DNA of 64,000 bases from Amycolatopsis circi (GTDB taxonomy: Bacteria; Actinomycetota; Actinomycetes; Mycobacteriales; Pseudonocardiaceae): NCBI RefSeq assembly GCF_003385235.1, contig NZ_PQIA01000013.1, positions 97,508 through 161,507 of the forward strand, in the 5' to 3' direction. This document shows, in pieces, positions 2,248 through 7,104 of this stretch (its first letter is position 1; each line of letters begins with the position of its first letter). The position numbers and the translations under genes were made by a program. Under the pieces are notes generated by a model, which saw nothing but the letters and a program-made list of their open reading frames with translations, was not told where the DNA came from and searched no databases.

Positions 2248-2643
2248 ATGCGGGTGAGATACCAGGTCGTCGCCTTTGACGCGGCAGATCTCGCTGCGGA
2301 GAGCGCGTTCTGGGCTGGCGTACTCGGCGGCCAGGTGGAGGCGGAAAGCGACTGGCACATGGTCACCGTGGACGGCGCGCCGCGCATCGGCGTGCAACTA
2401 GCACCGGACCACGTACCGCCAGAGTGGCCGGACGGCCCGACCCGGCAACACGTTCACCTCGATCTGTGGGTCGAGGACTTCGCCGAGGCTCACGAGCACG
2501 TCAGGTCGCTCGGGGCTACCTTGCTGAAGGAGGCCGAAGGGAACGCATCCGGCGACGACTTCCAGGTGTACGCCGATCCGGCCGGGCATCCCTTCTGCCT
2601 GTGCTGGCTGCCCGCTGCGCAACCGACTGGTCAGACCGGGTAA
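2248..2643 (+). CDS. VOC-superfamily (glyoxalase-like) protein
   Basis: A 131-residue protein of the vicinal-oxygen-chelate fold (Glyoxalase_6 type), with two beta-alpha-beta modules. A characteristic middle segment is HVHLDLWVED, and the end FQVYADPAGHPFCLCW is typical of small actinobacterial VOC proteins. Members bind or modify small molecules, and many have no known reaction. It starts 18 bp after the decarboxylase stop and may be cotranscribed. Its last ~20 codons form the first copy of a decayed tandem repeat that continues to 3331, where the C-terminal coding sequence recurs three times without the rest of the gene. Function unknown. Confidence 0.75.
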   Translation: MRVRYQVVAFDAADLAAESAFWAGVLGGQVEAESDWHMVTVDGAPRIGVQLAPDHVPPEWPDGPTRQHVHLDLWVEDFAEAHEHVRSLGATLLKEAEGNASGDDFQVYADPAGHPFCLCWLPAAQPTGQTG

Positions 2644-3331
2644 CCACGGCCGTCATCCCGCAGGATCGCGTGCGTCGCCGCGGCCTCCTTCGCAACTTAG
2701 CCCCGCCCCGGCCAGGAATCCTTCTCCCGGTGCTGGCTGGCCGCTGACCAACCGGACTGGTCAGGCCCGGGTAACCGCGCCCGTCCTCCCGCGGACTCGC
2801 GGACAGCGTCACTGCGAACTCCTCCGGACCCCCCCGCAAGCTGACCCAATGCCTGGGACTTAAGGCGGCGCTGTGGGTGCGGTTCGAAGTGTGCCTGTCC
2901 TGGTCGTGGGGGTGGGCGAGGCCGGCACGGGGTTTGCTGTCCGTGAGGGGAAGCGGCTAAGTGGGCGTAGGTCGGGCATTTCGGCGGAAGTGACGTCCTT
3001 TGTGGACGGTAGGTAGGCGTGAAGCCGCGCCGCTTAAGTCCCTGGCATTGGCAAGCTGACCCCGCCGGACGCCCCTTCCGCCGGTGCTGGCTGGCCGCCG
3101 AACAACCGGACTGGTCAGGCAGGTAACCGCGCCCGTCGTCCCGCAGACTCCCGGACAGAGCCGCCGCGAACTCCCTCCAGAACGCCACCGGCCGGACGTA
3201 TAAGCCACCCCGCCCGGGCAGCCCTTCTGCCCGTGCTGGCTGGTCGCCGACCGGGCCGGTCAAGCCGGGTAACCACGCCCGTCACCCTGCAGAATCGCGT
3301 GCAGCGTCGCCGCGAACTCCTCCGCTTCGGC
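2577..3331. repeat. four degenerate tandem copies of the VOC/mocR 3'-3' junction
   Basis: No intact gene lies between 2644 and 3259. Four diverged copies start near 2577, 2701, 3060 and 3208. Each carries on + the end of a VOC gene (core TGCTGGCTG, then GGTAACC) and on - the end of a mocR gene (core DGRGYP). Copy 1 is the live VOC 3' end and copy 4 the live mocR 3' end. Copies 3 and 4 still read open VOC tails, for example PFCPCWLVADRAGQAG before TAA at 3270-3272; copy 2 has lost the aligned stop. After removal of the 206-bp insertion and one 9-bp duplication, the units are about 125-148 bp long. Confidence 0.8.
2846..3051. mobile_element. 206-bp MITE-like element with inverted repeats and 9-bp target duplication
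   Basis: The ends are inverted repeats. The left end begins CCAATGCCTGGGACTTAAG (2846-2864), and the reverse complement of the right end reads CCAATGCCAGGGACTTAAG (3033-3051), with one mismatch in 19 and the match continuing as CGGCGC after a one-base indel. The element is flanked on both sides by CAAGCTGAC (2837-2845 and 3052-3060), a 9-bp target-site duplication. It has no credible ORF, so it must be mobilised in trans. It sits in the linker between copies 2 and 3 of the tandem repeat. The parent transposon is not in the window. Confidence 0.8.
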
Positions 3332-4597
3332 AGGCGACAGGCTCGCGAAGGTCACCCGAAGGCCCGGCGCGACGTTCGTCCGAAACGCCTCCCCGGTGCG
3401 CACCGCCCAGCCTCGTGCGAGGAGTGCCTGCGCCACCGCGCCCTCGGCCGGAGTCTGGATCCAGCCGTTGAACCCGGACCGGCCGGACAGCGTGATTCCG
3501 CGCCGCCCCAACGCATCCGCAAGAGCTTGCCGCCGGTCGCGGTAGGTCTCGCGGGCCGTGGTGAGCAGCTTGGGAGTCGCGGGATCGAGGAGGAGGGTCA
3601 CAGCCAGTTCCTGCAGGAGATGGCTCGCCCAGCCCGCGCCGACCTGCTGCCGCCGGTGCACCCGGTCCACGGTGAGCCGGTCGCCGGTGATGACGCTGAG
3701 CCGGAGGTCCGGGCCTAGGTACTTGGTCACCGAGCGGATCACCGCCCAGTGCCGGAAATCTCCTTGCCCAGCAACGGTTACCGATTCCGAGCCAGCGACG
3801 GCGGCAGCGTGGTCGTCCTCGATCACCAGGACGTTTTCGTGACGCTGGAACACTTTCCGCAGCTCCGAAGCCCGTTCCGGACTGAGTGCGGCACCGGTGG
3901 GATTCTGTGCGCGCGGCGTGAGAACGCACGCCGCCGGGCGCTGTTCGAGCGCACGTTGCAGGAGGTCGGCACACAGGCCGTCGTCGTCGACCGGCACTGC
4001 GATCGGGCGCAAGCCCAGTGCGGATACGAGATCCAGGACGCCGCCGAAGGCTGGATCCTCGACGAGCACGGTGTCACCGGGCCACAGGTGTGCCTGCAGC
4101 ACGCGCTCGATGGCGTCCATCGCGCCACCGGCGACCGCGAGGTGTTCGGCGGCGAGACCGTCGCGTTCGAAGTCGAGGCGGAACCAGTCCAGCAGGGCGG
4201 GCAGGTTGCCGGATTCGCCGTAGAGCCATTGCCGTCCGGACAGGTTGGCGAGTGCGGGCTGCAGCGGCGGGAGCAGCGCGGGGTCGGGGTTGCCGTCGGC
4301 AAGGTCGCGTACGCCTGGCCCGACCGGGGCGCCGAGTGCGCGGTTCTTCGGCGCGGTCCGTTCAAGCACACGGGTCCCGGCACGGCCGGAGGCTGCGACG
4401 AGACCGCGGTTGCGCAGCGTCCGATAGGCAGCGTTGACGGTCGCCGGGCTCACCGAGAGCCGCGCGGCAAGCTCGCGCACGGTGGGCAGCCGCGCGCCGG
4501 CCGCCAGCCTTCCGGCGGAGATGGCACCCTCAACCGACAGCGCGATCTCAGCGGCCGTCCGGCCGGACAACGCCGCAGCCTCGATCGGGTCAGTCAT
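3260..4597 (-). CDS. MocR-type transcriptional regulator (GntR HTH fused to aminotransferase-like domain)
   Basis: A 445-residue one-component regulator. Residues ~1-75 are a GntR winged helix (TVRELAARLSVSPATVNAAYR); the rest is a fold-type I aminotransferase domain that binds PLP and senses an amino compound. The domain keeps NPTG in TPRAQNPTGAALS and the PLP lysine K292 in SVTKYLGPDLRLS, so PLP should bind covalently. MocR proteins usually control a nearby PLP or amine gene, and here the shared word TGTACTAGCACAAT links it to the decarboxylase at 799-2229. The copy at 4603-4616 overlaps its own promoter region, so it is probably autoregulated. Its last ~20 codons are the fourth unit of the tandem junction repeat. 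Confidence 0.9.
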   Translation of the reverse strand: MTDPIEAAALSGRTAAEIALSVEGAISAGRLAAGARLPTVRELAARLSVSPATVNAAYRTLRNRGLVAASGRAGTRVLERTAPKNRALGAPVGPGVRDLADGNPDPALLPPLQPALANLSGRQWLYGESGNLPALLDWFRLDFERDGLAAEHLAVAGGAMDAIERVLQAHLWPGDTVLVEDPAFGGVLDLVSALGLRPIAVPVDDDGLCADLLQRALEQRPAACVLTPRAQNPTGAALSPERASELRKVFQRHENVLVIEDDHAAAVAGSESVTVAGQGDFRHWAVIRSVTKYLGPDLRLSVITGDRLTVDRVHRRQQVGAGWASHLLQELAVTLLLDPATPKLLTTARETYRDRRQALADALGRRGITLSGRSGFNGWIQTPAEGAVAQALLARGWAVRTGEAFRTNVAPGLRVTFASLSPAEAEEFAATLHAILQGDGRGYPA

Positions 4598-4647: not shown

Positions 4648-4669
4648 TTGACCTTCAAGCTGCTTGAAG
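4648..4669 (+). promoter_or_regulatory. MerR-type promoter: -35 box with 17-bp palindrome in the spacer
   Basis: TTGACC (4648-4653) is followed by a perfect palindrome, CTTCAAGC-T-GCTTGAAG (4653-4669), placed where MerR regulators bind between overlong -35/-10 elements. A -10 would fall near 4671-4678 and transcription would begin close to the GTG at 4685, so the mRNA may be leaderless. The palindrome is certain; the start site is inferred. Confidence 0.7.
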
Positions 4670-4684
4670 CCTGATGATGGGCAG

Positions 4685-5716
4685 GTGCCCGACCTGCTCA
4701 CCATTGGTGCGTTCGCCCGCCGCTGCGGCCTGACCGCCAGCGCGCTGCGCTTCTACGCCGATTCCGGCCTCGTGCGACCGGTCCGGGTCGACGAGGAATC
4801 CGGCTACCGCTACTACTCCCCCGGCCAGATCTCGGCGGCACTGCTCGTCCGGCGGTTGCGGGAGATCGGCCTGCCACTGGAGCGAGTCGGTGCGGTCCTC
4901 GCCGCCGATCCGGCCGAAGCGTCGCGGATCATCGACGACCACGTCGCCGGGTTGGTATCTCAGGTGCAGCAGGCGCGCGAAACCGCGGCGGCGGTGAAAG
5001 CGACGCTGGGTTCGACGGCCTCGGCGCCGTCAGTCCAGGTCACCGGGCCGGTGTTCGCCGCTGCCGTCGAGCAGGTGCTGACCGCGACGACTCAGGACCC
5101 GCAGGTGCTCAACGGCGTGCACCTGGAAGTCTCTCCCGAGGCGATTGTGCTCACCGCCACCGACCGATACCGGCTCTCGACCCGCACGTTGGTCCCCGCC
5201 GAACCGAGTGCGTCCAGTTGGAGCGCGACCATCGATGCCGACGACCTGCGGCTCGCGATGCCGTGGACGCGCCGTCAGCACGAACTGCACCTGAGCGTCC
5301 ACGGCGGGGAGTTCCGCTTCCAGGGCGACAGCACGGTCCGGGCCTGCCGCACTGTTGCCGACGAGTTCCCCGACTACCGGCTGATGCTCACTTCGCTGCC
5401 AGAAGTCCTTACCCGGGCAGTGATATCTCGCAACGCGCTGGTGGGATGTCTGGAACGCCAAAACACCGCGCAGGTCCAGCTAGACCTCTCCGCCGCGGCC
5501 GTCAGGGTGGGGGCCGAATCCATCCCCGCCGACGTCGCGGGACCGCCGATCTCGCTCTCCTTCGCCGTGAGCACGCTGCACCCGGCGATCAGCACAGCCG
5601 TCGGCCCGGACGTGATGCTGGACGTCGCGGGCCCGCACCTGCCGGTCGTCGTGCGCTCCGCCGACGACGGCGACCTGACCACCCTTGCCATGCCAGTGAA
5701 AGGAAACGGCAGATGA
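4685..5716 (+). CDS. MerR regulator fused to a two-domain DNA-polymerase sliding-clamp (DnaN-like) module
   Basis: From GTG 4685 the protein has 343 residues. Residues ~1-70 are a MerR helix-turn-helix (LLTIGAFARRCGLTASALRF, then SGYRYYSP), followed by a helical linker to ~115. The rest resembles domains 2 and 3 of the beta clamp: ATDRYRLSTRTL matches the clamp TDGHRL region, DEFPDYRLML the FPDYR segment, and the end LAMPV the clamp MPM/MPV terminus. Clamp domain 1 appears replaced by the DNA-binding part. MerR proteins respond to ligands bound by the C-terminal module, so the clamp fold probably acts as sensor. TTG 4664 is an alternative start but lies inside the operator palindrome. It overlaps the next gene by ATGA. 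Confidence 0.85.
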   Translation: MPDLLTIGAFARRCGLTASALRFYADSGLVRPVRVDEESGYRYYSPGQISAALLVRRLREIGLPLERVGAVLAADPAEASRIIDDHVAGLVSQVQQARETAAAVKATLGSTASAPSVQVTGPVFAAAVEQVLTATTQDPQVLNGVHLEVSPEAIVLTATDRYRLSTRTLVPAEPSASSWSATIDADDLRLAMPWTRRQHELHLSVHGGEFRFQGDSTVRACRTVADEFPDYRLMLTSLPEVLTRAVISRNALVGCLERQNTAQVQLDLSAAAVRVGAESIPADVAGPPISLSFAVSTLHPAISTAVGPDVMLDVAGPHLPVVVRSADDGDLTTLAMPVKGNGR

Positions 5717-6198
5717 CGGACACCATGGCCGAGATCACCGCCGCGGTGACGCAGGGCCGAACGGGCTCGACGGATGCCGCTCGGGCGCGTCTGCAGGAAC
5801 TGTGGGACGAGATCGGACCGGGCGGTGATCCGTTCTACCGCTGCGTTCTGTCGCACTACCAGGCAGATCTGTTCGCTGACCCGGCAGAGGCACTGGTCTG
5901 GGATATCAGAGCCTTGGACGCCGCGGCGACGGTGACCGACGAGCAGGTGCAAGCCCACGACGCCGGGGCCCAAATCGCAGGCTTCTACCCGTCGCTGCAC
6001 CTGAACCTGGCCGACAACTTCCGTCGCCTCGGGTCATTCTCCGCGGCGGCAGAGCAGATCAAGGCAGCGCGAAATCGACAGGACGCGCTAGCCGACGACG
6101 CGTACGGTGCGATGATCCGACAGGCGATCGACGGTGTCGCGGAAGCCATCGAACGCCGGTCTACCGAACGACGCACGACGGCACCAGGAGTCGAATAG
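5713..6198 (+). CDS. small helical (TPR-like) protein of the MerR-clamp operon
   Basis: A 161-residue, all-helical, soluble protein with repeat-like helices (SLHLNLADNFRRLGSFSAAAEQI) resembling a short tetratricopeptide array. No catalytic motif is visible. ATG 5713 overlaps the stop of the MerR-clamp gene by 4 bp, so the two are almost certainly translationally coupled. The frame is open further upstream but that part is a shadow of the MerR gene. Its TAG is directly followed by the next start. The tight coupling suggests a protein-protein adaptor for the clamp-like regulator or the kinase-like product; this is inference. Function unknown. Confidence 0.75.
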   Translation: MTDTMAEITAAVTQGRTGSTDAARARLQELWDEIGPGGDPFYRCVLSHYQADLFADPAEALVWDIRALDAAATVTDEQVQAHDAGAQIAGFYPSLHLNLADNFRRLGSFSAAAEQIKAARNRQDALADDAYGAMIRQAIDGVAEAIERRSTERRTTAPGVE

Positions 6199-7104
6199 TT
6201 GGAGCAATGGCTGTCGGACTGGTGCCTCGCGCACCTCGGCACCGCACCGGTGGAGGTCCTGTTCGAGGTGCGACAGGTCTCGACAGTGCACGGCCTCCGT
6301 CTCGAGGACGGCCGGAAGGTCGTGGTCAAAGCCAGACCGGATGACGACCGCGCCGAGTCGTGCGTCGCTGCGCAATCTCAACTCGCTGAGCGGGGCTTTC
6401 CTTGCGCACGACCGCTAACGCCCGCCGTCGCTGTCGGTTCCCTGGCCGTACACGCCGAGGAGTACCGCCCTGGCGGCGAAGTGATTTCCGGGGATTCGCC
6501 GGAGGTCGCCACGCGCTATGCCGAGGTGTTCGCTTTGCTGCTGGCGACTCTCGAGGCAATTTCCGTCAAGCCGCCGCTGCCGAACCCCCGCTGGCTGCGC
6601 TGGGATCACCAGGACCCCGGTCTGTGGCCAGCAATCGACTTCCTGGACGAGCGAGATCAGCGCTTAGTCCCCGAGGAGGTAACCAAAACCGCCGACCGAG
6701 CGCGACGCCGACTGCTCGCGGCCGATCTGCCGAACGTACTTGGCCACGGCGATTTCGAAGCGCAGAACCTCCGCTGGGATATCAACGGAGGCTGGACGGT
6801 ACATGACTGGGACAGCCTGGCATGGCAACCGGAAGCAGCGCTGGCAGGAGCGGCAAGCGGGATGTTCCCGAGTACCATTCCGCCGACGCTCGCGCCGATC
6901 GAAAGCTCCGCAGCGTTCCTAGAGTCCTATCAGGACTTCCGTGGCCGTCGATTCAGCCAGGCCGAACAGGAAGTCGCGTGGGCGGCGAGCGTGTGGCCAG
7001 CCGCGCACAACGCCCGATGGGAAGCACTGCATGGTGACCCGCAGATCTGTGGCGAAGCGCTGCGGGAGCAGGAGGCGGAACGTCTTCGCCTGGCGAACGC
7101 CTGA
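6199..7104 (+). CDS. aminoglycoside phosphotransferase (APH)-family kinase
   Basis: A 301-residue member of the APH/choline-kinase fold, which phosphorylates hydroxyls of small molecules with ATP. The Brenner motif is present as H183-G-D185-x4-N190 (GHGDFEAQN) and the metal-binding aspartate as D203 in VHDWDSLAW; the N lobe has VVVKAR as the ATP-contacting lysine strand. TTG 6199 follows the stop of the previous gene without any gap, which implies translational coupling; no later start keeps the N lobe whole. Third gene of the MerR-clamp operon, ending at a strong terminator hairpin. The acceptor could be an antibiotic or an amine. Confidence 0.85.
   Translation: MEQWLSDWCLAHLGTAPVEVLFEVRQVSTVHGLRLEDGRKVVVKARPDDDRAESCVAAQSQLAERGFPCARPLTPAVAVGSLAVHAEEYRPGGEVISGDSPEVATRYAEVFALLLATLEAISVKPPLPNPRWLRWDHQDPGLWPAIDFLDERDQRLVPEEVTKTADRARRRLLAADLPNVLGHGDFEAQNLRWDINGGWTVHDWDSLAWQPEAALAGAASGMFPSTIPPTLAPIESSAAFLESYQDFRGRRFSQAEQEVAWAASVWPAAHNARWEALHGDPQICGEALREQEAERLRLANA

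Follow-up and report, generated by a model that had tools for sequence, protein, structure and literature searches.

What can half of a replicative sliding clamp do once it is joined to the DNA-binding head of a transcription factor? The question is raised by a 64,000-nucleotide (nt) stretch of the Amycolatopsis circi genome (contig NZ_PQIA01000013.1, positions 97,508 to 161,507; the window), in which a gene at 4685-5716 encodes a MerR domain fused to two of the three domains (2 and 3) of DnaN, the ring-shaped beta clamp that keeps DNA polymerase on its template, and is followed by a gene for a small protein with a predicted tetratricopeptide repeat (TPR) fold. We propose, with a probability of about 40%, that the two genes form a one-component sensor in which a ligand of the clamp pocket would make the MerR dimer activate its own promoter. 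The module consists of the following coding features:

4685..5716, + strand: MerR-clamp fusion, 343 aa, GTG start at 4685 (Pfam and NCBIfam profiles, protein search, predicted model)
4694..4903, + strand: MerR winged helix-turn-helix, residues 4-73 (PF13411, PF00376)
4910..5008, + strand: long helix, residues 76-108, presumed MerR dimer helix (predicted model, single chain)
5045..5374, + strand: clamp domain 2, residues 121-230, with TDRYRL and FPDYR (PF02767, fold)
5411..5701, + strand: clamp domain 3, about residues 243-339, ending AMPV (weak PF02768 match, fold)
5713..6198, + strand: TPR-like partner protein, 161 aa (74 of 80 loci; predicted TPR fold)

The protein is a MerR-clamp fusion, as the first-pass annotation had observed. 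MerR_1 (PF13411) matches residues 6-73 with an E-value of 1.7e-14 and PF00376 gives 7.8e-10, both above cut-off, and DNA_pol3_beta_2 (PF02767) matches residues 121-230 with 1.3e-10. DNA_pol3_beta_3 (PF02768) reaches 2.3e-4 at residues 261-338 (21.4 bits versus a cut-off of 27 bits), and the dnaN model TIGR00663 covers residues 116-339 with 4.5e-17 (62 bits, below the equivalog cut-off of 137.65). The predicted model contains the fold of clamp domains 2 and 3, so the proposed likeness of the C-terminal part to DnaN held on structural comparison; clamp domain 1 is indeed absent, and the TDRYRL, FPDYR and MPV-type terminal motifs (here AMPV) are all in place. A longer alternative frame of the gene opens at a TTG at 4664.

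A search of 5.8 billion proteins, with 7997 candidates scored, gave 1044 matches, and among the matches listed 120 of 120 carry both MerR and clamp Pfam domains. In public databases they are named ‘MerR family transcriptional regulator’ or ‘DNA polymerase III subunit beta family protein’. At 1e-30 a 22-row profile matched 32 of the 394 class genomes searched; in G484, one of the 32, the match covers the MerR part alone. With a 51-row profile 161 of 296 genomes of the phylum gave matches, most rows being clamp-only (approximately positions 114-350, the range expected for dnaN itself) or MerR-only; among the phylum matches listed nine span the MerR and clamp parts, all from this class. In a tree of the clamp parts clade 1 (39 rows, including the window) groups with clade 2, and clade 3 falls on the dnaN side of the midpoint; row L052, first assigned to clade 3, places inside clade 2 on a long branch. 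A single origin of the fusion is possible, because all fusions are separated by a single branch (96/68, not starred) from dnaN, from the second clamps of some genomes and from Escherichia coli. Several clade-3 fusions (L053-L063) end in the canonical clamp terminus MPVRL. At one locus (L051/L233, G573:C1:1950670-1951718) the fusion is split across two frames with the partner still downstream, and L256 and L268 look decayed. We found no publication on a MerR-clamp fusion among the matches listed in the open-licence PMC literature.

The module is also found on plasmids: the fusion occurs in 7 of 72,556 plasmid records, each typed as non-mobilizable, and in 4 of 5 plasmid copies examined the adjoining partner was confirmed by sequence. 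A phage-borne module was rejected, as no match at E 1e-8 was obtained among 50,697 phage records. Comparison with the PADLOC models of known anti-phage systems gave nothing beyond a weak mad1 match (1.6e-7) over helix-turn-helix residues 4-49.

Promoter, partner and kinase genes were compared across 80 named loci, a few of which are cut by contig ends. Upstream of the fusion gene lie three elements:

4648..4653, + strand: -35-like hexamer TTGACC (sequence; TTGA invariant here in 79 of 80 relatives)
4653..4669, + strand: operator palindrome CTTCAAG-CTG-CTTGAAG (sequence and comparison of relatives)
4673..4678, + strand: -10-like hexamer GATGAT (xAxxxT in 79 of 79 relatives)

The MerR-type palindrome that had been noted in the promoter spacer is perfect (7 of 7 pairs) and spans the 19-nt spacer (4654-4672) between TTGACC and GATGAT. 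PMC1526738 describes MerR-family operators as palindromes in a promoter spacer of 19-20 bp, and the spacer is 19 nt long in the window and in 79 of 80 relatives. A TTGA element followed by YTC precedes the fusion in 79 of 80 loci (exception L137); its first T lies exactly 37 nt before the start codon in 78 of these 79 and 38 nt in one, and the xAxxxT hexamer comes next across a 19-nt spacer in all of them. The palindrome arms keep a mean of 5.3 of 7 pairs in 79 relatives, versus 1.9 with shuffled arm letters. Like promoter layouts were seen by eye in 12 loci of clades 2 and 3 and in the five plasmid copies examined (L325 counted from a GTG upstream of the annotated ATG). A simple sigma-70 scan with a spacer limit of 16-18 nt missed this promoter. 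As the start codon sits at the expected transcript start, the fusion mRNA is probably leaderless, with transcription beginning at about the GTG. By analogy with MerR proteins, and with the operator at its own gene, the fusion would autoregulate its promoter. Of 15 genomes with a fusion, 7 contain the strict operator pattern, once each and in every case at the fusion gene, so that no regulon beyond the operon was seen in these 15 genomes; the remaining 8 had no exact match, and a reversed control pattern gave 1 match overall. In a search of 8 genomes that allowed up to 3 mismatches, 7 matched at the fusion promoter.

The helical protein that had been described as coupled to the fusion is indeed so: its gene overlaps the fusion gene by 4 nt (ATGA). 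The search for further fusions and their neighbours, which the first-pass annotation had suggested, thus yielded a family with a shared partner. The partner family itself has matches in 88 of 394 genomes of the class. For its paralogues we collected 100 stretches, excluding the window's own; L276 gave no open reading frame (ORF), leaving 99, and neighbours were tallied as raw counts, with one member per gene type identified by Pfam and NCBIfam. The uracil-DNA glycosylase gene ung lies beside the partner in 35 of 99 stretches, 34 of them scored as upstream on the same strand; the exception, L244, is an ORF-calling artefact. A MerR-clamp gene adjoins the partner in 16 of 99 loci (three broken or decayed), a dnaE2-type polymerase gene directly follows it in 2 and a UvrD_C/PDDEXK gene directly precedes it in 1. 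In family f5, to which Streptomyces belongs, 37 genomes have at least one copy of the TPR-like gene, and in 35 of them it adjoins ung (L016-L021, L030 and fetched stretches). No publication on a TPR gene with ung was found in the open-licence PMC literature. A clamp-binding motif in the partner (QADLF in the window) was rejected as a general mechanism: the stretch lies in a predicted helix, Q is present in only 6 of 74 partners, all from Amycolatopsis, and LADLY or LADLH stands in most of the remaining ones.

Our principal reason to suspect that the clamp part has a binding partner is the conservation pattern of the pocket. Residues of subsites I and II were taken from the part of PMC11139829 that lists them, and positions follow E. 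coli DnaN in an alignment with 20 dnaN of fusion-bearing genomes, five second clamps being excluded; the fusion rows were picked for diversity, not randomly. L155, T172, R176, P242 and M362 are retained in at least 97% of the 39 clade-1 rows; Arg occupies position 174, which it also does in actinobacterial dnaN, and Tyr position 175, whereas 247 and 360 are conservatively changed and 246 varies. The gate residues Met362 and Pro363 are present in 51 of 51 fusions. When columns at least 85% conserved in dnaN were counted as conserved, 6 of 9 were kept in subsite I (in the 39 clade-1 rows), 1 of 3 in subsite II and 19 of 89 in the rest (Fisher 0.008), and mean entropy over the 51 fusions was 0.75 bits in subsite I versus 1.81 in the rest. 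Without positions 152 and 246 the values for subsite I become 6 of 8, p 0.003 and 0.42 bits; the test on the full residue list is thus the weaker one, its direction unchanged. Positions 272 and 273, which we take to be part of the ring (dimer) interface in domain 3, are fixed in the 20 dnaN and kept in 0 of 39 clade-1 rows. Since subsite I is kept while the ring interface is lost, the clamp part would bind something via subsite I.

In the mechanism that we propose, a ligand would settle in the peptide pocket of the decoy clamp part, and the ligand-bound MerR dimer would then activate the promoter of the module, presumably by the ligand-driven promoter untwisting that is typical of MerR regulators. 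The ligand would be a hydrophobic binder of the clamp pocket; this is the least certain part. We favor a clamp blocker of foreign origin (for instance a peptide of the griselimycin type or a clamp-binding protein of a phage or plasmid) over polymerases of the cell itself, because the module has a patchy distribution, is also found on plasmids, sits twice between insertion-sequence genes and apparently acts on its own promoter only. The output would be increased amounts of both proteins: of the decoy clamp, which could additionally sequester the ligand in the way that TipA-class regulators capture drugs, and of the TPR partner, which may serve DNA repair or replication, judging from the neighbours of its paralogues.

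A number of findings weigh against this sensor model. Position 152 of subsite I varies in clade 1, and some subsite I residues may be conserved for packing. Subsite II is no better conserved than the rest (1.85 bits over the 51 fusions); in clade 1 N320 of E. coli is kept in none of the rows and Y323 is replaced by T in 85%. The claim that the domain 2-3 pocket had been kept therefore stands for subsite I and fails for subsite II in the window's clade, and neither a full QLxLF peptide nor griselimycin can be taken for granted as the ligand. Of the 8 genomes searched with up to 3 mismatches, three contain operator-like sites away from the fusion, 3 sites in all. Six of the 80 loci lack the partner, and among the clade-3 loci examined none has an adjoining TPR partner. 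All 35 ung cases belong to f5, and because the link is confined to this one family it counts as one event. Furthermore, 45 of 99 partner loci have no adjoining seed gene. Among these an RNase HI gene overlaps downstream (L264), Ku lies two genes up (L190) and ligA is convergent in 3 loci of one genus; many neighbours have no DNA role, and 6 of the 45, from one family (L252, L257, L258, L260, L261, L270), lie just after a bacterial proteasome activator gene (PF10759 in L252; the other five cluster with that of L252).

The loss of so much of the clamp could also mean that the clamp part is a fossil scaffold, serving stability, another dimer surface or the binding of an unrelated small molecule elsewhere, with a pocket that has no role. 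In agreement with this, 70 of 89 clamp-conserved columns outside the pocket are gone, subsite II is altered and other conserved stretches, for example RSADDGDLTT, lie outside the listed pocket residues. However, such a scaffold would not account for the greater conservation of subsite I, including both gate residues, across the 51 fusions, and we regard it as rather unlikely.

A different sensor would read the replication state of its own cell: free polymerases, clamp loader and repair factors would dock when forks stall, and the repair-linked partner would rise. The links of the partner to repair genes fit either this or a foreign ligand. Paralogues beside ung, dnaE2, a UvrD-type gene, RNase HI and convergent ligA would suit such a role, as would three clade-2 loci in which the fusion, decayed in one case, comes directly after dnaB, a plasmid fusion approximately 3.6 kb after a plasmid dnaE gene and the retention of subsite II in clade 3 (N in 6 of 7, F in 5 of 7). 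However, the patchy occurrence of the fusion among genomes of the class, the two plasmid copies between insertion-sequence genes, the operator mainly at the fusion's own promoter and the loss of subsite II in clade 1 speak against it. We consider such self-monitoring improbable on balance, yet a serious competitor of the foreign-ligand sensor, because many neighbours of the partner family act on DNA and clade 3 has the fuller pocket.

Directly after the partner gene the window has a third gene:

6199..7104, + strand: APH-family kinase, lineage-specific, not core (PF01636, 2.3e-12)

The first-pass annotation had read the three genes as a sensor and detoxification operon, in which the kinase would inactivate the sensed drug. 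The kinase directly follows the partner in the window and in four Amycolatopsis loci, which would agree with such an arrangement. However, it occurs in only 4 of 80 loci (L065, L067, L068, L069) and was not found in 76, a few of them contig-cut, including the Amycolatopsis loci L064 and L066. On an S. atratus plasmid an APH-family gene lies approximately 590 nt after a distant fusion, but it has no recognisable similarity to the kinase of the window. The kinase was thus rejected as a core part of the module and is a lineage-specific add-on; given its presence in 4 of 80 loci the ‘detoxification operon’ is unsupported, and a three-gene resistance operon seems to us very improbable.

Sensor domains related to a drug's target or its relatives are known from BlaR1 and MecR1, which are membrane beta-lactam receptors and unrelated proteins. 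From DnaN, with which it shares domains 2 and 3 and most of subsite I, the fusion differs in lacking domain 1 and the ring-interface residues and in bearing a DNA-binding head. Its architecture of MerR head, presumed dimer helix and putative C-terminal sensor domain resembles the TipA class (TipAL, SkgA), which passages of PMC7762955 present as minimal autoregulated systems whose sensor sequesters drugs. In contrast, the TipA sensor is TipAS (PF07739), which had no match in the window at E up to 1, and the putative sensor of the fusion is a relative of the replicative clamp. GriR and MypR, according to the relevant part of PMC10817943, are second DnaN copies that give self-resistance in the griselimycin and mycoplanecin clusters. 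Like them, the fusion is a clamp relative that possibly faces clamp-binding peptides; unlike these DnaN genes of biosynthetic clusters, it is a half-clamp regulator with a partner. No peptide-antibiotic cluster was found among the window neighbour genes scanned, which include GntR/MocR regulator, decarboxylase, glyoxalase and beta-lactamase-fold genes, and the main texts of the griselimycin and mycoplanecin cluster papers do not contain the word ‘MerR’. Strain DSM 40835 (‘S. caelicus’), which produces griselimycin, has been reassigned to S. muensis (a passage of PMC10145440; NCBI taxonomy), and S. muensis DSM 103493 carries fusion and partner (L122); we did not count this as evidence because many of the 80 loci come from other Streptomyces.

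In its widest form, half of an actinomycete clamp would have become a transcription factor: the pocket, which in the clamp recruits polymerases and repair enzymes to DNA, would measure clamp blockade by antibiotics or by proteins of phages or plasmids, and the response would be a mobile two-gene module for replication rescue, with a TPR partner from a family scattered among base-excision, translesion and fork genes; this full account we hold to be doubtful. Should the pocket sense ligands, the fusion could serve directly as a reporter for antibiotics that bind the clamp, among which there are anti-tuberculosis leads. It would then also be a natural example of a docking site on a hub protein turned into a switch, and would give access to a TPR-like family that lacks a described function and is found repeatedly next to ung, dnaE2 and further repair genes.

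Some further features of this genome were noted. It carries a divergent second clamp of 367 aa ending in MPMLSR (L305, G000:C65:11549-12532), near an MBL-fold-like and a transporter-like gene as judged by eye; second clamps are also present in G461, G450, G393 and G553 (L301-L304). Divergent from the fusion, at 3260-4597, lies a gene for a MocR-like GntR/aminotransferase regulator that closely resembles PtsJ (1.4e-116, below the cut-off). At 2591-3324 direct repeats of 47 nt and 60 nt, four copies each, lie between the glyoxalase-type and GntR/MocR genes and extend into their 3′ ends.
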